A stretch of DNA of 8,241 nucleotides from Acidobacteriota bacterium. GTDB lineage: Bacteria; Acidobacteriota; Terriglobia; Terriglobales; Acidobacteriaceae. The first letter of the stretch is position 1, and the number at the start of each line of letters is the position of its first letter. The DNA is taken from the NCBI GenBank assembly GCA_021819255.1, contig JAKART010000084.1:1-8241 (forward strand), given 5' to 3'. The notes under the pieces were generated by a model. The model was not told the DNA's origin and did not search any database. It worked only from the letters and a program-made list of their open reading frames with translations. The translations under genes were made by a program, and so were the position numbers. Positions 1 to 8,241 of the stretch are shown piece by piece.

Positions 1-6
1 TTTGGG

Positions 7-37
7 TTCGCATGGGCCGCTTCCGGTCGCCTATAAT
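7..37 (+). promoter_or_regulatory. Putative sigma70-type promoter for bamA
   Basis: A perfect -10 hexamer TATAAT lies at 32-37. The best -35 candidate is TTCGCA at 7-12, which matches TTGACA at four of six positions with a 19-bp spacer, longer than the ideal 17. Transcription would start near 44 and leave a leader of roughly 80 nt before the first possible bamA start. The leader holds a short inverted repeat, TGTCCA at 82-87 and TGGACA at 95-100. Seen directly: the hexamers. Inferred: that they drive bamA. Confidence 0.5.
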
Positions 38-121
38 CAAAGCTCTACCTTGGTGTTTCGCAGTGCTGGAATCAACTGACGTGTCCAACAAGCGTGGACA
101 GATTCAAAGAGCAGTGAGGGT

Positions 122-3100
122 GTGGTTATTTTTACCGGAATCCGAGTGAGCGCAAGCTCCGTGAAGTCTTTGTCCCAGCCTGTGCGCACGCGCTCGAGCC
201 GATTGGGCATCCTTGGCTTTGGCCAAAGCCGCTCCGGCCTGAATCGTGTCGTCGTCTCTGCCCATCGCCGGAGCTTCTCGCGTCTGGGTGTCGCCGCGGG
301 TCTGGCTGGTTTGGCCATCCTTCTGGCGCCGGCCGGCTCCACGCTGGCCAGGGCGCAAGTCCAGGTCTCCCCTCCGTTCTCTGCCGCCTCAGCGCCACAG
401 ATCCTCTGCCCGGTGGAAGTGATCGGTAACCGCCGCATTCCCAAGGAATCCATCGTCGCGCGGCTCTTCAGCCACGCTGGCGATGTCTATGATCCTTCCG
501 TGGTGGAGCGCGACTTCAATTCGCTATGGAATACCGGCTACTTCGACACCGTGCGGATTGAGAAGGTCGAAGGCAAGGGATGTCTGCAGTTGCTGGTGTA
601 CGTGCGCGAGAAACCCACCATCAGCGAGATCAACTACAAGGGCCTGAGCTCCATCACGGCCTCCGACGTGATGGACCGCCTGAAGAAGGAACACGTCGGC
701 CTGAACGTGGAAAGTCAGTTCGACCGCACCCGGGTGAAGCACGCCGAAGTGGTGCTCCAGGAGATGCTGGGAGAGCACGGACATCAGTTCGCCACCATTA
801 AAACCGAAGTCAAGACGATTCCTCCGGCGCGTGTCGCGCTCACCTTTGTCGTGAAGGAAGGCCCCACCGTGAAGGTGGGCAAGATCGCCTTCACCGGCAA
901 CCATGCGCTCTCCCACCGCCAACTGGTGGAAGCCATGGCGAACCTGAGGCCGATCGGGATTCCGCACTCGATCATCTTTGAAGACCTGTTCCCGCGCACC
1001 TATGACGCCAGCAAGCTGGATGAAGACGCGGATCGCGTGCGCGAAGCCTACCGCGACAAGGGTTACTTCAAGGCCATCACCGGCGAGCCCCGGACCCATG
1101 TCCGCAACGCCGGCGGCATCAATCCGTTCACCCTGCGCCCCTCCAAGGGCAAGCGCGTGGACATCGTCATCCCTATCGAAGAGGGCCAGCGCTACCGTCT
1201 GGGCGGAATCACCTTTTCCGGGAACAAGTCTTACCGTAACGCCAAGGCCCTGCGCGCGCTCTTCCCAGAGGCTGACGGCACCTGGTTCAACGCGAGGCTC
1301 TTTGCCAAGGGCATCGATAATCTCAAGAAGGCCTACGGCGAGGGCGGTTACATCAACATGGTGCCGACTCCGATTCCACGAGTCGACGAGGCCAAGCATC
1401 TGATCTATCTGAACGTCGACATCGATGAAGGCAAGCAGTTCTATGTCTCGCGCATCGAGTTTACCGGCAACACCCTGACGCGCGACCGCGTCATCCGGCG
1501 CGAAATGCTGATTCAAGAGGGTCAGGTGTACAACAGCCGCCTGGTCGACCTCTCCCTGATGCGTCTCAACCAACTGGACTACTTCGACACACTGAAGACC
1601 GACCAGGACGTGGAGACGCAGCAGAACACCGATGCGGGCACGGTGGACCTGCTCATCAAGCTCCATGAAAAGGGCAAGAACTCCATCGGCATCAATGGTG
1701 GCGTCAGCGGGCTCTCCGGCTCCTTCCTGGGAGTGAACTATGCAACCAACAACTTTCTCGGCTTTGGAGAGACGCTGAACGTCACCGCCAACATCGGCGA
1801 CCTGGAGCGCAATCTGAGCTTCGGCTTCACCGAGCCCTACCTGCACAACAAGCCGATCTCGCTTGGCATTCAGGTCTTCGACCGCAAGACCGACTTCAAC
1901 CCCTCCAAAAGCTATTCCGTGACCGGTTCCAATCAAAACCTGGCCACAGCCCAGCAGTCGCTGCTGAACAACTTCAATCAGTCGGCCAAGGGCCTGACCA
2001 TCCAAACCACGGAAGCCCTGCGCACGCTCTTCCGCCGCACCGGCGTCGCCCGAATCGGAGTGGCCTACTCCTGGTCGAGTTCCGGCATTACAACCTTCAA
2101 CCAGAACACGCTCAGCGTCTTCCAGACTCTGGCCTTTCGCTCCGGCATCGAGGGTCCGAACCAGTTGAACGGCATCGTCACCTCCGTGCTGACGCCCAGC
2201 TTCAGCTTCAGCACCCTGGATCGGCCCATTGGGCCACATAGCGGCAAGGAACTGAGTGTTGCTATCCAATTCGCAGGTATGGGCGGCAACACAAAGTACT
2301 ACTCTCCTGTGGTTGCCTGGCGGCAGTTCTTCCCCATGAAGGGAATCAGGATCAATAGAGAAGGCCACAACGTCTTTGCCTATCGATTTCAGCTAGCCAA
2401 CATCTCCGGCTTTGGCGGCCAGGTAGCGCCTCCCTTCTCCCGCATCTACAACGGCGGTGAGAATGATCTGCGCGGCTTCGACATCCGTTCCCTCTCGCCC
2501 TATACCTTCATGCCCACCAAGGTGATGTTCAACCTGACCAATCCGGATGGAACCGGCGTCCCTCGCGATCCGACCGACCAGGCTCTGGGCGATGTGCAGA
2601 TCCCGCTGCCCATCTATCGTCTGGCGCCGATTGGCGGCGATACCTCTGCCATCACCAACCTGGAGTACCGTTTCCCGATCATCAATCAGATCACCTTCGC
2701 GATCTTCGATGACATTGGCCTGACGATGAACCTGGAGCCGCACCAGTTGATGATGAGCCCCGAAGGCCTCTCAACCATCAACAGCCCCACCTATGGCTGC
2801 CCGGAGGTGGTCAACGGAGAGTGTCTGCAGGGCTATCAACTGCCGCCCTACTCTGAGTTCCTGAAGAACGTGCCTCATACCAACATCGTTCCGCGCATGT
2901 CCACGGGGCTTTATTTGCAGGTGCTGATGCCGATCATCAATGCGCCGTTCCAGATCTACTACGCCTATAACCCGCTGCGGCTTTACAGGGCGATACCGCA
3001 GCAGATCGTCGCTCCCAGCGGTTCGGCGTGCTCCGGCACCTCTCAGGAGTGCTTCAAGGACTTCTTCCCCTTCGCCACAGAGCCGGGCGCGGCGGCCTAT

Positions 3101-3193
3101 ACCTACCAGCAGGCGCTGCAATACTACGGAGCGGATTACGTTCTGCGTGAGCCACGCAAGACCTTCCGCTTCACCATCAGCGAGTCCTTCTAA
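122..3193 (+). CDS. bamA: BamA: outer membrane protein assembly factor (Omp85 family)
   Basis: BamA is the central subunit of the BAM complex and folds beta-barrel proteins into the outer membrane. From the first GTG the product is 1023 residues. A signal peptide (basic stretch near 49-55, hydrophobic core 56-70, likely cleavage after A-R-A at 76-78) leads into five POTRA domains at about 96-163, 164-245, 248-357, 358-440 and 441-515; four begin with a strand ending in G-N or K-G. The C-terminal barrel (about 516-1023) carries the lid-loop motif LRGF at 783-786, the equivalent of VRGF, and ends in the aromatic S-E-S-F typical of outer-membrane proteins. It has exactly six cysteines, two in POTRA1 and two in each of the last two outer loops. 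The start is uncertain: GTG 122 has GAGGG only one base upstream, and GTG at 146, 161 or 182 or TTG 203 would give a more normal signal peptide. The length exceeds the roughly 800 residues of proteobacterial BamA because of longer loops and the N-terminus. It is transcribed alone as far as visible. Confidence 0.95.
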   Translation: MVIFTGIRVSASSVKSLSQPVRTRSSRLGILGFGQSRSGLNRVVVSAHRRSFSRLGVAAGLAGLAILLAPAGSTLARAQVQVSPPFSAASAPQILCPVEVIGNRRIPKESIVARLFSHAGDVYDPSVVERDFNSLWNTGYFDTVRIEKVEGKGCLQLLVYVREKPTISEINYKGLSSITASDVMDRLKKEHVGLNVESQFDRTRVKHAEVVLQEMLGEHGHQFATIKTEVKTIPPARVALTFVVKEGPTVKVGKIAFTGNHALSHRQLVEAMANLRPIGIPHSIIFEDLFPRTYDASKLDEDADRVREAYRDKGYFKAITGEPRTHVRNAGGINPFTLRPSKGKRVDIVIPIEEGQRYRLGGITFSGNKSYRNAKALRALFPEADGTWFNARLFAKGIDNLKKAYGEGGYINMVPTPIPRVDEAKHLIYLNVDIDEGKQFYVSRIEFTGNTLTRDRVIRREMLIQEGQVYNSRLVDLSLMRLNQLDYFDTLKTDQDVETQQNTDAGTVDLLIKLHEKGKNSIGINGGVSGLSGSFLGVNYATNNFLGFGETLNVTANIGDLERNLSFGFTEPYLHNKPISLGIQVFDRKTDFNPSKSYSVTGSNQNLATAQQSLLNNFNQSAKGLTIQTTEALRTLFRRTGVARIGVAYSWSSSGITTFNQNTLSVFQTLAFRSGIEGPNQLNGIVTSVLTPSFSFSTLDRPIGPHSGKELSVAIQFAGMGGNTKYYSPVVAWRQFFPMKGIRINREGHNVFAYRFQLANISGFGGQVAPPFSRIYNGGENDLRGFDIRSLSPYTFMPTKVMFNLTNPDGTGVPRDPTDQALGDVQIPLPIYRLAPIGGDTSAITNLEYRFPIINQITFAIFDDIGLTMNLEPHQLMMSPEGLSTINSPTYGCPEVVNGECLQGYQLPPYSEFLKNVPHTNIVPRMSTGLYLQVLMPIINAPFQIYYAYNPLRLYRAIPQQIVAPSGSACSGTSQECFKDFFPFATEPGAAAYTYQQALQYYGADYVLREPRKTFRFTISESF

Positions 3194-3194
3194 G

Positions 3195-3223
3195 CTGGCG
3201 GGATCCGAACAGATCCCACCCAG
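3195..3223 (+). terminator. Hairpin directly after bamA stop
   Basis: One base after the bamA stop, CTGG and GGGATC (3195-3198, 3200-3205) pair with GATCCC and CCAG (3212-3217, 3220-3223) around a six-base loop, giving a ten-pair stem with a small internal loop. No T-run follows, so it is not a classic intrinsic terminator. It may act as a 3'-end stabiliser or a Rho-assisted stop. The pairing is seen directly; the role is inferred. Confidence 0.4.
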
Positions 3224-3618
3224 GCGACTTCCCTGCAAGGCCGTGCTTATCCTCGGCGTTGGGCGTGGATGGGCGCCTTTACCGAACTCGGTCCAACTGC
3301 GGGCGGTCGGCTGGGGTGGAAAAAAGACGCCGCCACCTTCGCCCTCTGGCCATCCCTGCAACAGGGAGAGTCTGAGGCAGCGCTACCGGCTGTGCCGATC
3401 TTCTGTATAACCGCAGGCAAGAGCGCTCTCCATCGACTTCGGTACGGCGCCTTCCCCCCGGGCGAGCGGACCCTGAGGACGCCTGGGAAATGCGGAAGAC
3501 GCGGACCGAATTCGGGTGGGGCACGCAAGGATAAAAGATACCAAGGTATCCAGCTAGGAACACACGGCCGGCTACGGCGTTGACGGCGGGAACCGTGGCC
3601 AAGAATCATGAAGGCTGG
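3224..3618. other. Gene-poor spacer between bamA and rlpA
   Basis: I find no convincing gene here on either strand. Open frames exist (for example 3269-3583 on the plus strand and several on the minus strand), but they show no recognisable motif, have poor start contexts and give low-complexity basic translations typical of GC-rich noncoding DNA. The stretch holds a small perfect hairpin (TCCCTG at 3353-3358 against CAGGGA at 3362-3367), a weak TATAAC -10-like hexamer at 3406-3411 without a good -35, and a 14-bp palindrome at 3537-3550. The rlpA promoter should be in this region, but I cannot place it with confidence. Confidence 0.5.
3537..3550. repeat. 14-bp perfect inverted repeat upstream of rlpA
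   Basis: GATACC at 3537-3542 and GGTATC at 3545-3550 form a perfect inverted repeat around AA. It sits in a short AT-richer patch of the GC-rich spacer, about 70 bp before the preferred rlpA start. Its size and symmetry would suit a dimeric regulator's operator. That role is inferred from position alone. Confidence 0.35.
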
Positions 3619-4428
3619 ATGTTGAACAAGGGTAGCCCATTGACGGCGGGCATGCCGGATGGCCAGAGGGCAACCGTCTCCGGTCACCGCCGGCCCATGG
3701 GGCGTGGGGAGCGGCCAAAGCCGGCCCTGGCCGGCTGGATCGTTGCCAGCGTGCTGATGCTGCTCTCCGGTGGCTGCCATCACCGCAGCCAACAGCCCTC
3801 TGTGCCGCCCCCACCCACGCTGGGCGGCCGGCAGAGCAACGCCGCACCCTCCGAGCGGGCTCCGATTCCCCTACCCAAGGGACGGCCGGATTTTGTGGAA
3901 ACCGGCATGGCCAGTTGGTACGCTCCCAGCGGACATCGCGCCGCCGACGGCTCCTACTACGATGGCGCCGGTATGACCGCGGCTCACAAGACACTTCCGC
4001 TGGAGACCATCGTCCGGGTGACCAATCTTTCCAACAACAAGTCCGTGCTGGTGCGCATCACCGACCGCGGGCCCTTCGTGCACGGGCGTATCATCGACCT
4101 CTCTGAAAGCGCAGCCAAGAAGATCGATCTCTATCGCATGGGCGTGGCCAGGGTTCGGGTGGAAGCCTACTTGCGTACCTCGCCCGCAACCCAGTCCAAC
4201 TGGTGCGTGCAAACCGGCGTCTTCCCCACAAGGAAGGATGCCCTGGACCTGAAGAGGGCGCTGCTGCGCCGCTACGCCGGATCCCAGGTCATCGAGTTCA
4301 CCGGAGCCACCGGCTACTGGGTACGCATTCGTCCGGCCCGTCCCGATCGCGCCGAAGCCGTGGCGATCATGGAGTGGATCGGCCGGCCGTTCCCGCACGT
4401 CGTTCCCTATCTGGTTCGATTGAATTAG
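3619..4428 (+). CDS. rlpA: RlpA-like septal lipoprotein (double-psi beta-barrel plus SPOR domain)
   Basis: RlpA proteins are outer-membrane lipoproteins that gather at the division site; some are lytic transglycosylases acting on glycan strands lacking stem peptides. Numbering from TTG 3580 (282 residues), the protein has a hydrophobic segment 50-62 with lipobox L-S-G-G-C (Cys66), a proline-rich linker 70-100, the double-psi barrel about 107-196 (ASWY, TAAHKTLP, VRVTNL, DRGPF, GRIIDLS) and a SPOR domain about 204-270 that in this family binds denuded septal peptidoglycan. His136 and Asp162 are present, but the usual Glu of the N/S-G-E motif is Ser125. I start at ATG 3619 because AAGG lies four bases upstream; TTG 3580 extends the frame, while ATG 3697 would give the most normal lipoprotein signal (27 residues to the Cys). 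An 11-bp direct repeat, TTGACGGCGGG (3580-3590, 3640-3650), spans the disputed start. It is likely co-transcribed with the protease gene ten bases downstream. Confidence 0.9.
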   Translation: MLNKGSPLTAGMPDGQRATVSGHRRPMGRGERPKPALAGWIVASVLMLLSGGCHHRSQQPSVPPPPTLGGRQSNAAPSERAPIPLPKGRPDFVETGMASWYAPSGHRAADGSYYDGAGMTAAHKTLPLETIVRVTNLSNNKSVLVRITDRGPFVHGRIIDLSESAAKKIDLYRMGVARVRVEAYLRTSPATQSNWCVQTGVFPTRKDALDLKRALLRRYAGSQVIEFTGATGYWVRIRPARPDRAEAVAIMEWIGRPFPHVVPYLVRLN

Positions 4429-4431
4429 GAG
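4427..4431 (+). promoter_or_regulatory. Ribosome binding site overlapping rlpA stop
   Basis: AGGAG at 4427-4431 uses the last two bases of the rlpA stop codon and lies seven bases before ATG 4439. It is the clearest Shine-Dalgarno sequence in the window. It fixes the protease start and argues for a shared transcript with rlpA and possible translational coupling. Confidence 0.75.
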
Positions 4432-4438
4432 ATCTGAG

Positions 4439-5800
4439 ATGCGCTGGATGTCCTGGAATTCGTCCTCTACCCGTCTTGGCCCACTCTTGTTTCTGCTCGG
4501 CATCCTCGTCCTGTGTCTGACCGGTTGCGCCGGCCAGACCAGAGCCGAGCATGCCGCCGATCTAGCCGCCCGACAGGAGTTGGCCGCCGCTCCGCCCCAC
4601 GGCAACACGGCGCAGTATTCTCTGGCTCCGGCGGAGTTGGTCAAGGCACAGCATCTCAGCAGCGTCGGCCAGTTGCTGCACTTTGGCGGCGAGGCCTGGG
4701 ATATGCTGTGTCTTGTTCTTCTCCTCAGCTTCGGCGGCATCGCCTGGATGCGTGACAGATCCCTCAAGATCAGCTCCAATCGCTGGGCGCAGGGCTATGC
4801 CTTTCTCTTCCTGTTTCTTCTGGCGACCACGCTGCTCGATCTCCCGCTGGATCTCTACGCTCACCACCTCTCGCTGCACTACGGCCTGTCCGTACAAGGC
4901 TGGCCCAGTTGGTTCCGCGATCAGATCAAGGTCTTTGCGCTGGCGTGGGGGATTGGCGGTCTGCTGGTCATGCTCCTGTTTTGGATCATCCGCAAGATGG
5001 AGCGGATGTGGTGGCTGGTCTTCTGGTGCGTCTCGATCCCCATTTTGTTCTTCGGCATCTTTGTCGCGCCCTATATGGAGCCAATGTTCTTCCAGTATCA
5101 GCCGCTGGAGAAGACCAACCCCGCCCTGGTCCTCCGTCTGGAGCAGGTGGTGCAGAAGGGCCATATGAACATCCCGCCGCAGCGGATGTTCCTGATGAAG
5201 GCCAGCGCCAAGCTATCTACCCTGAACGCTGACGTGGAGGGCTTTGGAGCCAGCAAGCGCGTGGTGGTGTGGGACACCACCATCGCGCACATGACTCCGG
5301 ATGAGATCGTCTTCGTCTTTGGCCATGAGTCCGGGCACTATGTTTTGCATCACATTCGCAACACCATCGTCTTCACCCTTGTCCTGCTTCTGGCAGCCTT
5401 TTATCTCGGCTATCTCTTTGTACAGTGGTCCATCAACAAGTTTGGCTCCATATGGGGCGTGCCTTCACAGAACGACTGGGCGGCGTTGGCCGTTCTGCTG
5501 CTGGCCCTTTCCTTCTTTGGCGCCTTGCTGGAGCCCATGGAAAACTCTTACAGCCGCGGGCATGAACATGCCGCCGACATTTACGGAGAAGAGGCCATCC
5601 ATGGGTTGGTCGCTGATCCCCAGGCAACCGCCAGAGACGCCTTCGACGTGCTGGGCCAAACCTCTCTGGCTGATCCCAACCCGAACCCGTTCTACGTGTT
5701 TTGGACCTACTCCCACCCCTCGATCGGGTATCGCGCGGCCTTCGCGCAAGCCTACAATCCGTGGGCGCCAGGCCAGGATCCCCGCTATTTCAGACGCTAA
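4439..5800 (+). CDS. M48 family integral-membrane zinc metalloprotease (STE24-like)
   Basis: This is a membrane-embedded zinc endopeptidase of 453 residues, close in size and layout to STE24/CAAX-prenyl-protease-1-type M48 enzymes; its bacterial substrate is unknown. The zinc site is H-E-S-G-H at 296-300, with Glu376 in R-G-H-E-H-A-A-D as third ligand and Asp380 conserved. The upstream block around 263-281 (N-A-D-V-E-G-F-G, K-R-V-V-V-W-D-T-T) and S-H-P-S at 425-428 match the family core. Hydrophobic segments lie near 13-29, 87-103, 118-137, 164-184, 190-211, 308-329 and 347-363. The first ends in L-T-G-C (Cys30), a lipobox-like motif unusual for a multi-pass protein, followed by a polar region 31-84. 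ATG 4439 is supported by AGGAG seven bases upstream. It lies ten bases after rlpA on the same strand, so an envelope-maintenance operon is likely, but a functional link between the two products is inferred. Confidence 0.92.
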   Translation: MRWMSWNSSSTRLGPLLFLLGILVLCLTGCAGQTRAEHAADLAARQELAAAPPHGNTAQYSLAPAELVKAQHLSSVGQLLHFGGEAWDMLCLVLLLSFGGIAWMRDRSLKISSNRWAQGYAFLFLFLLATTLLDLPLDLYAHHLSLHYGLSVQGWPSWFRDQIKVFALAWGIGGLLVMLLFWIIRKMERMWWLVFWCVSIPILFFGIFVAPYMEPMFFQYQPLEKTNPALVLRLEQVVQKGHMNIPPQRMFLMKASAKLSTLNADVEGFGASKRVVVWDTTIAHMTPDEIVFVFGHESGHYVLHHIRNTIVFTLVLLLAAFYLGYLFVQWSINKFGSIWGVPSQNDWAALAVLLLALSFFGALLEPMENSYSRGHEHAADIYGEEAIHGLVADPQATARDAFDVLGQTSLADPNPNPFYVFWTYSHPSIGYRAAFAQAYNPWAPGQDPRYFRR

Positions 5801-5853
5801 AACTGCGTGAGGCCGCCGCGCCGAAGCAACCTGCGAAGCGCCGCAAAAAGGGA

Positions 5854-5869
5854 GCGCCGAAGGCGGCGC
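5854..5869. terminator. GC-rich hairpin after the rlpA-M48 pair
   Basis: GCGCCG at 5854-5859 pairs with CGGCGC at 5864-5869 around a four-base loop, 53 bases after the protease stop. There is no T-run, and short GC stems arise easily by chance here, so this is only a candidate 3' end for the two-gene unit. Confidence 0.25.
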
Positions 5870-5945
5870 GCCATGGTCCGCAAAGCTCTGCGTCGGGAGC
5901 CTGGCCTTTCTATCTGCGCCGCACGAGCGCGAGCTTCACGGCCGC

Positions 5946-5976
5946 TTGATCCTCTCGCCTCGGCTGGGTTTAAGAT
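5946..5976 (+). promoter_or_regulatory. Candidate promoter directly abutting the HIT gene
   Basis: TAAGAT at 5971-5976 resembles a -10 hexamer (five of six positions), and TTGATC at 5946-5951 resembles a -35 (four of six), with a 19-bp spacer. A start site six or seven bases after the -10 would fall at or next to the A of ATG 5983. No Shine-Dalgarno sequence lies before that ATG, so the transcript may be leaderless. Confidence 0.4.
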
Positions 5977-5982
5977 GCACCC

Positions 5983-6348
5983 ATGGCTACTGACTTTGAT
6001 TGCCTCTTCTGCAAGATCGCAAGTGGCGCCATCCCGGTGAAGCGTCTCTATGAGAACAGCGATGTGCTGGCCTTTCCCGACATTCATCCACAAGCGCCGG
6101 TGCACATCCTCTTGATTCCCAAACAGCACTTCGGGTCTCTTACCCACTGCACCGCCGGAGAGTCTCCTCTGCTGGGTCAGCTTCTCTCCGCAGCCGGCAT
6201 AGTGGCACAGCAGCAAGGCCTCAGCGTGCATCCCGGCGGCGGCGGCTTCCGCCTGGTGATCAACACTGGCCCGGACGGAGGGCAGAGCGTCGATCACCTG
6301 CATCTGCATCTGCTCGGCGGAAGAGAGATGGGATGGCCTCCCGGCTAG
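5983..6348 (+). CDS. HIT family protein (HINT-like purine nucleoside phosphoramidase)
   Basis: HINT-branch HIT proteins are small cytosolic dimers that hydrolyse AMP-lysine and other adenosine phosphoramidates. The product is 121 residues, a usual length. The catalytic motif H-L-H-L-H-L-L is at 105-111, with His107 the expected nucleophile. C-L-F-C at 7-10, with His49 and His105, fits the zinc site found in many bacterial HIT proteins. F-P-D-I-H-P-Q-A-P-V-H (31-41) and the C-terminal G-G-R-E-M-G-W-P-P-G are HINT hallmarks, so the C-terminus looks native. ATG 5983 has no Shine-Dalgarno sequence, but a -10-like hexamer ends six bases before it. The TAG stop lies inside the left arm of a 118-bp palindromic element, whose hairpin may also end the transcript. 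It is probably monocistronic. Confidence 0.93.
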   Translation: MATDFDCLFCKIASGAIPVKRLYENSDVLAFPDIHPQAPVHILLIPKQHFGSLTHCTAGESPLLGQLLSAAGIVAQQQGLSVHPGGGGFRLVINTGPDGGQSVDHLHLHLLGGREMGWPPG

Positions 6349-6462
6349 ACCATTTTCCCTGAAGGTGTAAGCAAGGGGAACGACTCCTGTGGGCGTTTTC
6401 CTCAATGAAAACGCCACTGAACGCCCGCTTCCGTACACCCATCATCAGGGAAAATGGTCTAG
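6345..6462. repeat. 118-bp palindromic element with 18-bp perfect terminal inverted repeats (REP/MITE-like)
   Basis: CTAGACCATTTTCCCTGA at 6345-6362 is the exact reverse complement of 6445-6462. The 82 bases between carry further nested symmetry: GGTGTA at 6364-6369 pairs with TACACC at 6434-6439, and GGCGTTTTC at 6392-6400 pairs with GAAAACGCC at 6407-6415 around a six-base loop, with partial pairing between. As RNA or single-stranded DNA the whole element folds into one long interrupted hairpin. It starts one base before the HIT stop codon and encodes no protein. The architecture fits a REP-type or MITE-type dispersed element. I see no clear target-site duplication, and only one copy is in this window. 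It could also serve as a 3'-end hairpin for the HIT mRNA. Confidence 0.75.
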
Positions 6463-6736
6463 AGACTCGGCATGGAGGCTGGATTGAGGATCCTCGATCT
6501 CTCGGCGGCGACGCAAGATCCTCAAGCGCTCTGCCGGGACTGCGAGGTTGCAAATCACCTTCTGGAAGCACTCTTCGCGCGAGCGCTTGCTCATCCATGG
6601 CGCCCAGCTCCATGCAAACTCGTGAGACGCACTTCGAACGCAGCAGTTACTAAAGTGAACGAAAGTAATCCATCATCGAGAAATGAAGTAACCAAAAAAT
6701 CGCGTAGAGTCACCTTTCTCCCTTAGTGATTTCTAA

Positions 6737-6759
6737 CACCTAAAGTGAGGCTTTAGGTG
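6737..6759. repeat. Perfect 9-bp hairpin in the AT-rich patch
   Basis: CACCTAAAG at 6737-6745 and CTTTAGGTG at 6751-6759 form a perfect stem around a five-base loop, TGAGG. Flanking TAA (6734-6736) and TTA (6764-6766) could extend the stem across a four-base bulge. There is no T-run on either side. Terminator, operator and RNA structure remain possible. Confidence 0.55.
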
Positions 6760-6856
6760 GGCGTTAACTCGCATGGTTCACTCGCTGCAACCCTTGTCAT
6801 TGCTGGCGTTTCGTCCGCCTGCACCCAAATTTTGCATCCTCTCTATCAAGCCTTTG

Positions 6857-6910
6857 CACGCAGAAGAGAAAGAGTTTTCCCATCACACGCTGAAGAGAAA
6901 AAATTTTCCC
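6857..6910 (+). repeat. Two 25-nt direct repeats with a 29-nt period
   Basis: Copies at 6857-6881 and 6886-6910 are 25 nt long, match at 22 positions and are separated by ATCA. Each begins CACGC, has a purine-rich centre (GAAGAGAAA) and ends TTTTCCC. They lie about 140-190 bp upstream of msrA. The identity is seen directly. Roles such as tandem regulator sites or a small duplication are inferred. Confidence 0.6.
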
Positions 6911-6997
6911 GGCCCGATCAATTCCGAGTCCGATGGATAGGACGCGGCCGGCTCTTCCCTGCAGAGTGGAAAAGACCTTCCGTCAAGCGGCTCATCC

Positions 6998-7038
6998 TTA
7001 CCATCCAGCGCGTGGCGCGGATACTAGAACACTGGAGG
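6998..7038 (+). promoter_or_regulatory. Candidate promoter and ribosome binding site of msrA
   Basis: TTACCA at 6998-7003 and GATACT at 7020-7025, 16 bp apart, each match the sigma70 hexamers at four of six positions. GGAGG at 7034-7038 lies ten bases before ATG 7049 and supports that start. The ribosome binding site is convincing; the promoter is weak, and its start site would almost touch the ribosome binding site. Confidence 0.35.
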
Positions 7039-7048
7039 TTCCACACTG

Positions 7049-7672
7049 ATGACCACCCATCCCAAGCAGACGATTCCCGCTCCTCTTCACGATCTTCAGC
7101 CGCTTGCCGGTGAACACTCTCCGGGCTCTCGGGACAGAGCCATCTTCGCTGGAGGCTGTTTCTGGGGAGTGCAGTCCGTCTTTCAACGCGTGCAGGGAGT
7201 TGTCCAGACCACCGTTGGCTACTGCGGGGGCTCTGCCGCCACCGCCAACTACCGCGATGTTTGCAGCCAGAAGACCGGACACGCCGAGGCCATTGAGATC
7301 CTGTACGATCCCGCCGCGGTGAGTTACGGCACGCTCTTGCGTGTCTTCTTCTCCGTGGTGCATGACCCCACGCAGCTCAATCGCCAGGGCGCGGATGTGG
7401 GCGCGAGCTACCGTTCCGCAATCTTCTATACCAGTGAGCAGCAGCGAACGGTCGCGCAAGCCTATGTACAGCAGCTCGACGCTGCTCAGGTTTTCGCCGG
7501 ACCGATTGTGACTCAGATCGTTCCGCTCTCCACCTTCTATCGCGGCGAAGAGTATCACCAGGACTATGCGATGAAGAATCCGCACAATCCGTACATCCAG
7601 GTCTGCGACATCCCCAAGATCCAGGCATTGAAAAGGCAGTTTCCCGATCTGTTTGTGGAGTACGAGCCATAG
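7049..7672 (+). CDS. msrA: Peptide-methionine (S)-S-oxide reductase MsrA
   Basis: MsrA reduces the S-epimer of methionine sulfoxide in free or protein-bound form, repairing oxidative damage with reducing power usually from thioredoxin. The product is 207 residues. The catalytic Cys37 lies in G-G-C-F-W-G (35-40), followed by the V-G-Y-x-G-G, V-C-S-x-x-T-G-H-A-E, H-D-P-T-Q-L-N-R-Q-G-A-D-x-G and Y-R-G-E-E-Y-H-Q blocks that define the family. The C-terminal N-P-x-x-P-Y-I, D-I-P-K and F-P-D-L-F blocks also fit. Cys59 lies inside G-Y-C-G-G, where Ala or Ser is more usual; Cys72 and Cys186 are the other cysteines and candidate resolving residues. A 28-residue polar leader precedes the core and does not look like a signal peptide, so the enzyme is probably cytosolic. 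No msrB is visible nearby. ATG 7049 is preceded by GGAGG, and the gene converges with the phosphoesterase. Confidence 0.96.
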   Translation: MTTHPKQTIPAPLHDLQPLAGEHSPGSRDRAIFAGGCFWGVQSVFQRVQGVVQTTVGYCGGSAATANYRDVCSQKTGHAEAIEILYDPAAVSYGTLLRVFFSVVHDPTQLNRQGADVGASYRSAIFYTSEQQRTVAQAYVQQLDAAQVFAGPIVTQIVPLSTFYRGEEYHQDYAMKNPHNPYIQVCDIPKIQALKRQFPDLFVEYEP

Positions 7673-7690
7673 CGTGTGATCCGCTTCGGA

Positions 7691-7716
7691 GCTTCGGCCA
7701 CGCAAATGGCCGGGGC
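7691..7716 (+). terminator. Hairpin between msrA and the convergent phosphoesterase gene
   Basis: Read as plus-strand RNA, 7691-7700 pairs with 7707-7716 over ten positions, including two G-U wobbles, around the loop CGCAAA. On the minus strand only the inner six pairs survive, so the fold favours msrA transcripts. No T-run follows. It lies in the 69-bp gap between convergent stop codons, where a terminator is expected. Confidence 0.5.
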
Positions 7717-7741
7717 AGAACCGGGTCACTGACGAGATGTT

Positions 7742-8241
7742 TTATTTGCCGGCGCTTAGCCGAGAGGCCAGCCGCTCCGGCAGGCGCGCTTCCCGGATCG
7801 CCGCCTGCGCCGCGGCGACATCGTAGGGAGTGCGGAAGAAGGTGACCTGCTCGTTGCTCTGGTCGTAGATGGCGAACGCCGCTCTCCAGTCGCCATCGCG
7901 CGGCTGCCCCACTCCGCCGGGATTGATCAGATAGCGCGCGCCGCTCGGCACGCGAAGGGTGAACTGCTGCAACTGTTCCCTGGACTCCGCCGGATATTCA
8001 GGATGGTCTTCCGACCAGCACTCTCCACGGCGGGAAAAAGCTCCCTGCAGGTGCGTATGGCCAAAGAACGCCAGCTCGACGGGCATACGCTGGAGAGGAA
8101 TCCAGGCATCTCGCATCGACGCGACGTACTGGTCCTCATGCAAAGGCGAGCCATGCGCGCATAGCGCTCTGTTGGTTGCCTGAATCGGGCCCATGGGCAA
8201 TGCTCGCAGCCACTCCCGGTTCTCCGGGCGCAGGTAGATCG
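7742..8241 (-). CDS. Calcineurin-like metallophosphoesterase, C-terminal part (gene runs off the window)
   Basis: This is the C-terminal part of a binuclear-metal phosphoesterase of the calcineurin-like (YfcE/MJ0936-type) superfamily. The frame is open to the window edge, so the N-terminal metal motifs (D-x-H, G-D, G-N-H-D) lie outside. The visible 165 residues contain C-A-H-G-S-P, where the His is a metal ligand, and F-F-G-H-T-H, where both His are ligands, followed by L-I-N-P-G-G-V-G-Q-P-R-D-G-D. This order matches small single-domain phosphodiesterases of about 240 residues. The TTG and ATG codons at 8200 and 8194 are internal, since the coding frame continues upstream with normal composition. 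The substrate cannot be told from these motifs. The gene converges with msrA, stopping 69 bp away on the opposite strand. Confidence 0.88.
   Translation of the reverse strand, partial: IYLRPENREWLRALPMGPIQATNRALCAHGSPLHEDQYVASMRDAWIPLQRMPVELAFFGHTHLQGAFSRRGECWSEDHPEYPAESREQLQQFTLRVPSGARYLINPGGVGQPRDGDWRAAFAIYDQSNEQVTFFRTPYDVAAAQAAIREARLPERLASRLSAGK

Follow-up and report, generated by a model that had tools for sequence, protein, structure and literature searches.

A putative IS630-type miniature element of Acidobacteriaceae is commonly found in the stop codons of host genes

We analysed an 8,241-nt stretch of an Acidobacteriota genome (Acidobacteriaceae; GCA_021819255.1, contig JAKART010000084.1, positions 1 to 8,241; hereafter the window), in which the gene of a HIT-family protein runs directly into a palindromic sequence. 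Very probably, this sequence is one copy of a 112-bp, high-copy miniature inverted-repeat element (6348-6459), which an IS630-family transposase acting in trans inserted into the TA of the TAG stop codon of the HIT gene, the first base of the element, a G, restoring TAG. The copy number, the near-identity of 70 copies in the same genome, the duplication of TA, the preference for CTAG, an empty site in a relative, the preserved HIT frame and the over-representation of copies at predicted stops are direct observations. Stop-codon residence is common in the whole element family, and the HIT case is no accident.

The preliminary description of the locus had reported a palindrome at 6345-6462 with exact reverse-complementary 18-bp ends, a 9-bp central hairpin and pairing beyond chance, all of which was confirmed. 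The terminal 18 bases are exact reverse complements, and the two arms of the perfect central hairpin (6392-6400 and 6407-6415) enclose a loop of 6 nt. Folded as RNA, positions 6345-6462 reached -57.4 kcal/mol on the + strand (z -7.95) and -65.9 kcal/mol on the - strand (z -9.52), with 0 of 200 shuffles as good in either case. The palindrome is thus real and folds far better than its shuffles on both strands. Its outermost bases, CTA...TAG, are target DNA outside the mobile unit (Table 1), and the HIT reading frame has remained intact despite the insertion. One frame through the element is open on the - strand, where an antisense ORF of 213 aa (window 5797-6438) begins within the element and continues back across HIT; this ORF is probably spurious.

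Table 1. Features of the element and its target at the HIT locus (window coordinates).
Feature	Position	Strand	Basis
112-bp MITE (mobile unit), GACCATTTTCCC...GGGAAAATGGTC	6348..6459		Boundaries from 70 insertion sites in the own genome and the empty site in G003
Left copy of target TA, bases 1-2 of the HIT stop codon	6346..6347		Single TA in the G003 empty site; 2-bp flanks identical in 58/70 copies
Right copy of target TA; with G6462, the TAG stop before insertion	6460..6461		G003 empty site; flanks of 70 copies
Left terminal inverted repeat (15 bp exact), with a relationship to IS630 ends that extends over 24 bp (6348-6371)	6348..6362	+	Sequence, end comparison
Right terminal inverted repeat, 15 bp exact	6445..6459	-	Sequence
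Central hairpin GGCGTTTTC / GAAAACGCC	6392..6415		Sequence; column identity of the corresponding 25-base core 0.963 in 58 T. albidus copies
Gene of a HinT-like protein of the HIT family (121 aa), ending in TAG at 6346-6348, the G being the first base of the element	5983..6348	+	

Further copies were abundant in the own genome, a metagenome-assembled genome (MAG) of 2.74 Mb and 67% completeness. A 17-base end motif, searched with up to 2 mismatches, gave 150 forward and 151 reverse matches, against 0 and 1 for the reversed-pattern controls, and the MAG therefore holds about 150 copies. For analysis we took 70 unique copies of 112 bp that had flanking sequence on either side, excluding 17 that were cut by the end of a contig or locus and one copy of 110 bp. 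Twenty-five of the 70 were identical to the consensus, and the pairwise difference averaged 2.25 of 112 bases (largest 17), a near-identity that looks like a recent burst. The 2-bp flanks on the two sides were identical in 58/70 copies and were mostly TA, which stood to the left of 55 copies and to the right of 63; C preceded TA in 50 copies and G followed it in 55. CTAG was the insertion site of 29/70 copies, compared with 65/3524 control TA sites. The element shares with IS630-derived MITEs the preference for CTAG, the duplication of TA, and a size below 300 bp with terminal inverted repeats and no transposase gene. The unequal flanks in 12/70 copies exceeded the prediction from the low divergence, possibly through mis-joins in the MAG, recombination between copies or loose target choice. 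A few copies of the own genome occupied TG/CA or TC instead of TA.

Comparison of HIT loci with and without the element, as the preliminary description had proposed, revealed the state before insertion. Of the 27 other genomes of the genus, 25 gave a match to the HIT gene; the element was absent from the 60 nt past the HIT stop in all 25, every one of which ended at the same residue, with TAG or TAA as the stop in 24 and TGA in one. In G003, whose HIT protein is 98% identical, an exact empty site (...CCTCCCGGCTA followed by GAGACC...) equals the two flanks of the element in the window joined by a single TA. Therefore the stop was already TAG before the insertion, and the G of the element rebuilt it; the right junction of the HIT copy also reads TAG, on the other strand. 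The earlier statement that the palindrome supplies part of the HIT stop thus holds for this G only, since the surrounding CTA...TAG belongs to the target and the stop pre-existed. Of the 70 copies, 7, with that at HIT among them, had joined flanks that aligned across the junction in DNA of relatives (six in G003 and one in G026); the remaining ones gave alignment on one side only or had no matching DNA for comparison. At the G026 site, another MITE lies 25 bp off. Together with the roughly 150 copies, the 25 consensus-identical ones among them and the absence from all 25 relatives, the empty site bears out the earlier suggestion that a mobile sequence was recently inserted exactly at the gene end.

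The positions of the copies relative to genes were then analysed with genes called by a purpose-made codon-usage model, in place of a standard annotator, on sequence from which the elements had been removed. Against these predicted genes, 29 of the 70 insertion TAs in the own genome formed the TA of a TAG or TAA stop, 37 were intergenic and 4 lay within genes. When the base on either side of TA was matched, 5.5 of 57 (all TA sites) or 9.9 of 56 (non-coding TA sites) were expected in stops. A 10-position weight matrix built from the intergenic insertions predicted 9.5% in stops, where 28/52 were seen. Stop TA sites were occupied in 26/115 cases, compared with 14/303 TA sites 1-120 bp downstream (OR 6.0, p 1.9e-7), and the context-matched ratio of stop to near-3' sites was 3.4; the own-genome loci had been picked for holding an element, which inflates the occupancies, so only the ratios were used.

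A sample of Terriglobus albidus, 800 kb in contiguous tiles searched by element ends only, held 58 elements, of which 18 were in stops and 7 inside genes; the 58 include members of tandem arrays (9 adjacent pairs) and 22 copies without TA on both sides. For the 36 elements with TA on both sides, the Mantel-Haenszel OR was 4.6 (2.3-9.3) against intergenic TA of the same context and 5.7 (1.8-18.3) against near-3' TA. Without matching, 14/365 stop TA sites were occupied versus 9/2044 downstream ones (OR 9.0, p 5.9e-7). Loci carrying the core pattern in four named genomes gave 27 of 43 clean elements in stops (OR 19 versus intergenic and 42-49 versus near-3' sites), a sample biased by the exact core pattern, by fragments of at most 8 kb and by the dropping of 52/95 elements as frayed or near an end, and we therefore relied on the unbiased 18/58 of T. 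albidus.

Ten of the 28 stop-occupied proteins were compared with NCBIfam and all matched at E <= 1e-10, several of them below the curated cut-offs because they were cut fragments or matched at family level only. The end of the profile was reached exactly by ribosomal protein S9 (rpsI, 130/130), GyrB (639/639 and 803/803) and FPP synthase (288/288), and the other matches were FtsK (1353/1355), MutL (632/634), AhcY, RlmN, a LacI-type regulator, an aldo-keto reductase and the HIT protein. Such proteins keep their ends since TA followed by a purine is a stop, and insertion into the TA of TAG or TAA thus gives the stop back. All 70 own-genome copies began with a purine and 69/70 ended with a pyrimidine. 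Among 42 alignment rows of the wider family, chosen for TA at both ends, TAG or TAA was formed with the flanking TA at 42/42 left ends and 40/42 right ends.

The stop excess can be read in two ways: a preference for YTAR combined with survival suffices, or stops are preferred over and above it. We consider it moderately likely that target preference and purifying selection account for the excess by themselves, with no special link to stops. The CTAG/YTAR preference is strong, and IS630 reportedly prefers CTAG, to judge by the title of Tenzen and Ohtsubo 1991. CTAG made up 22/2669 of coding TA sites versus 8/89 of unoccupied stop TA sites. When CTAG sites only were compared, stop and downstream occupancies did not differ significantly, neither in the own genome (15/23 vs 7/15, p 0.32) nor in T. 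albidus (3/54 vs 1/71, p 0.31), and targeting of stops is therefore not claimed. However, the excess persisted after matching of the base on either side of TA, after the 10-position matrix and against TA sites just downstream, where an insertion is presumably about as harmless.

Selection may also have acted on the hairpin itself. The subfamilies have ends that differ yet pair (GACCATTTTCCC, GAGCATTTTCCC, GAGCATTTCTCC and AAGGCAGTTTCGG). In the 42-copy alignment, changes on both sides were found in 10/27 pairs, compared with 3.5 in shuffles, and 94.1% of cells were paired, compared with 90.7% in shuffles and 44-51% when the sides were slid; the rows were thinned from 130 elements and selected for a flanking TA on either side and no more than 3 end mismatches, which inflates the paired share. 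Because the search itself had largely selected for the core in this alignment, the invariance of the core there is no proof. In the 58 T. albidus copies found by ends alone, the 25-base core was the most conserved segment (0.963), ahead of the inner segments (0.86 and 0.88) and of the ends (0.93), which the search had selected. The central hairpin was probably kept either because copies that have it are those that amplify or for an action on mRNA 3' ends.

The latter possibility leads to the view that the element is a former MITE, domesticated and retained at gene ends where its hairpin protects or processes mRNA, so that selection rather than insertion bias would explain the stop excess. The strong fold of both strands, the conservation of the central hairpin above its neighbouring segments, the covariation in the stem and the higher share of older copies in stops (27/43, from the biased sample) are consistent with it. 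We nevertheless regard it as unlikely. With 25/70 copies equal to the consensus, the time available seems too short for long retention, and 29/70 are already in stops. Paired changes in the outer stem would also arise if a single transposase has to accept both ends, so they are no proof of an RNA function. A search for a U-tract terminator or terminator-like site at the element found none, and Rfam covariance models gave no match to window 6200-6600 up to E = 1. The structured 3' end envisaged in the preliminary description may exist as a side effect of the insertion.

Structural variants were also seen among the copies. T. albidus (G200, C39:265263-265720 and 268761-269102, L381) carries head-to-tail arrays of 4 and 3 elements that share TA at a period of about 114 bp, perhaps because further elements inserted one after another at the TA beside the first. 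In old copies from a different subfamily, the central loop is longer by about 40 bp (L047 131-281 on C49 of the own genome; L318 7447-7592 in G003), and these copies may represent a second length form like that of Correia elements.

The link to IS630 was drawn from insertion sequences of relatives, where six full-length IS630 copies were found, 1026-1032 bp long and each bordered by TA at either end. The L217 copy has a DDE_3 domain (E 9.5e-39) and the ends GAGCATTTCTCCTGATGGTGTATA and GAGCATTTCTCCTGTTACTGTAGA. The left end of the window element, GACCATTTTCCCTGAAGGTGTAAG, matched the L217 end at 18/24 positions and the IS630 end in L228/L234 at 19/24, the latter figure resting on a single visible IS630 end since L228 and L234 show one site in two overlapping loci; the maximum among 21,591 TA-flanked 24-mers in 400 kb of G002 was 15/24. 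The left end of the GAGC subfamily reached 20-21/24 (background maximum 16). The right end gave weaker evidence: the window element matched IS630 ends at best at 17/24 (background 15), and the family consensus at 18/24 equalled its background maximum of 18. All these matches are to IS630 of relatives, the best ones coming from another genus (G089) and another family (G147). The purine-first property recurs in the IS630 ends (GAGC, GATC and AAGC), and 2/6 full-length copies lie exactly in stops, those of an outer-membrane barrel gene (L212, profile 838/838) and of an EmrA/HlyD gene (L221). A 93-aa frame at L217 was considered as a third such case and left uncounted, as it had no family match.

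In the own 67%-complete MAG, no intact IS630 with a GACCATTTTCCC end was found. Two IS630 fragments at contig ends have the end AAGCATTTTTCG, alike in 9 of the first 14 bases. L061 and L062 were considered as full-length cognate IS630 copies of the own genome and rejected, L061 having no paired TA-flanked ends and L062 having ends of another kind. At L064 1284-1399 (C258), the TA bordering a resident IS630 fragment on its right side is occupied by a MITE copy. Among element-bearing relatives, DDE_3 gave no match in 5 of the 12 tested (G002, G011, G015, G023 and G027), and the IS630 subfamily was present at E <= 1e-20 in just 2 of the 15 other element-bearing members of the genus (G020 and G026).

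Judged from its sequence, namely the TA duplication, the CTAG preference and the IS630-like left end, the element is an IS630-type MITE, and we infer that its cognate transposase is likely an IS630-type enzyme encoded elsewhere. The IS of the two enzymes named in the preliminary description, a trans-acting RAYT or an IS transposase, is thus the one that fits. It is very unlikely that the element is instead a palindrome of the REP/REPIN type mobilised by a RAYT (Y1 tyrosine transposase), which would share its high copy number, its palindromic form and the position of 66/70 copies outside genes. To our knowledge, REP/REPIN palindromes make no target duplication, whereas 58/70 copies here have identical 2-bp flanks, mostly TA, and a left end resembling those of IS630. 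PF01797 (Y1_Tnp, RAYT) gave 0 matches in the 67%-complete MAG, and the 112 bp of the element stand against 20-40 bp for REP in the account consulted (PMC3733652). A hairpin or intrinsic terminator specific to the HIT locus, to which the position directly at the HIT stop had pointed, is refuted by the roughly 150 copies elsewhere, the absence after HIT in 25/25 relatives with a match and the lack of a U-tract terminator.

In the mechanism that we propose for an IS630-type MITE, IS630 elements of related bacteria (of the same family and the same class), with similar 24-bp ends, TA duplication and YTAR targets, would encode a transposase that probably recognises the ends of the element. This transposase would prefer TA within CTAG or YTAR, a site that is rare within coding sequence yet common as a stop. 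The purine-first end would then turn TA plus purine back into a stop, leaving the host protein untouched, and the insertion would survive. A further step can be put forward only tentatively: an IS630 subfamily of Acidobacteriaceae and its MITEs may have adapted to stops, by preferential insertion into TAG/TAA and purine-first ends that rebuild the stop, and may spread through the ends of essential genes with their proteins untouched, placing a conserved hairpin on the 3' ends of host mRNAs.

The search of the genome and its relatives proposed in the preliminary description identified a dispersed element beyond the own genome too. At E <= 0.001, 19/200 genomes matched: the own genome, a further 15 from its genus and 3 from other genera of the family. 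The core hairpin pattern occurred at at least 80 loci over the named genomes, and among the matches listed the titles were all Acidobacteria, Acidobacteriaceae, Acidobacteriales, Granulicella or Terriglobus albidus. G002 gave 14 first-look candidate elements, and none was found in its 400-kb sample. The elements of G020 are closest to the window subfamily (83-88%), yet its HIT protein is just 69% identical; the four best element matches in G003 (HIT 98%) are 74-81% identical and belong to other subfamilies. The trees of hosts and elements seem to disagree in these two genomes, as after horizontal entry or loss.

Among known systems, RUP with IS630-Spn1 appears to be the closest published case, likened here by description and not by sequence. 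RUP is described as 107 bp long, with about 108-110 copies per genome, IS630-Spn1-like ends, insertion at TA and conserved copies (PMC2229807, PMC3049150). It belongs to another phylum and is described as intergenic, often near or in IS genes, with stop codons unmentioned in the passages cited. Unlike RUP as so described, the Acidobacteriaceae element starts with G, by which TA becomes a stop again, and its central hairpin is strongly conserved. Correia or NEMIS elements of Neisseria are given as about 107 and 155 bp, with 24-bp ends, terminal TA, stem-loop transcripts and short and long internal forms (PMC2229807); they have another host and are likewise compared by description, and a longer-loop form seems to exist here too. 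ERIC or IRU is presented as a 127-bp repeat with TA ends, target duplication and a role in mRNA stability, but with 7-bp ends and, in that account, no mention of an IS630 match (PMC2229807). TA duplication is described as the hallmark of IS630/Tc1-mariner (PMC2170065), and ISY100 transposase alone is reported to move a mini-element into TA in vitro (PMC2170065). The element shares TA duplication with such insertion sequences (ISY100, IS630) and similar 24-bp ends with the IS630 of relatives, but differs in being non-coding and in that its cognate transposase was not found intact in the own genome. In one published case, a gene is described as obtaining its C-terminus, just before the stop, from a single MITE at its 3' end (PMC5896051). 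In the open-licence full-text literature, so far as it was covered, we recognised no description of this Acidobacteria repeat or of MITEs concentrated in stop codons. The kind of element, an IS630-type MITE as judged above, is known; its residence in stop codons is the new point.

Accounts of high-copy MITEs usually place them between genes. In the present case, a large proportion of copies lies precisely in the stop codon, also in the genes of ribosomal protein S9 and gyrase B, since the target site and the end of the element together re-create the stop. Such residence would offer parasites a simple route to high copy number in compact genomes, and would give many unrelated mRNAs an identical hairpin at their 3' ends simultaneously. 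It also makes the roles of target choice and selection in MITE distribution directly testable in an in vitro IS630 system.
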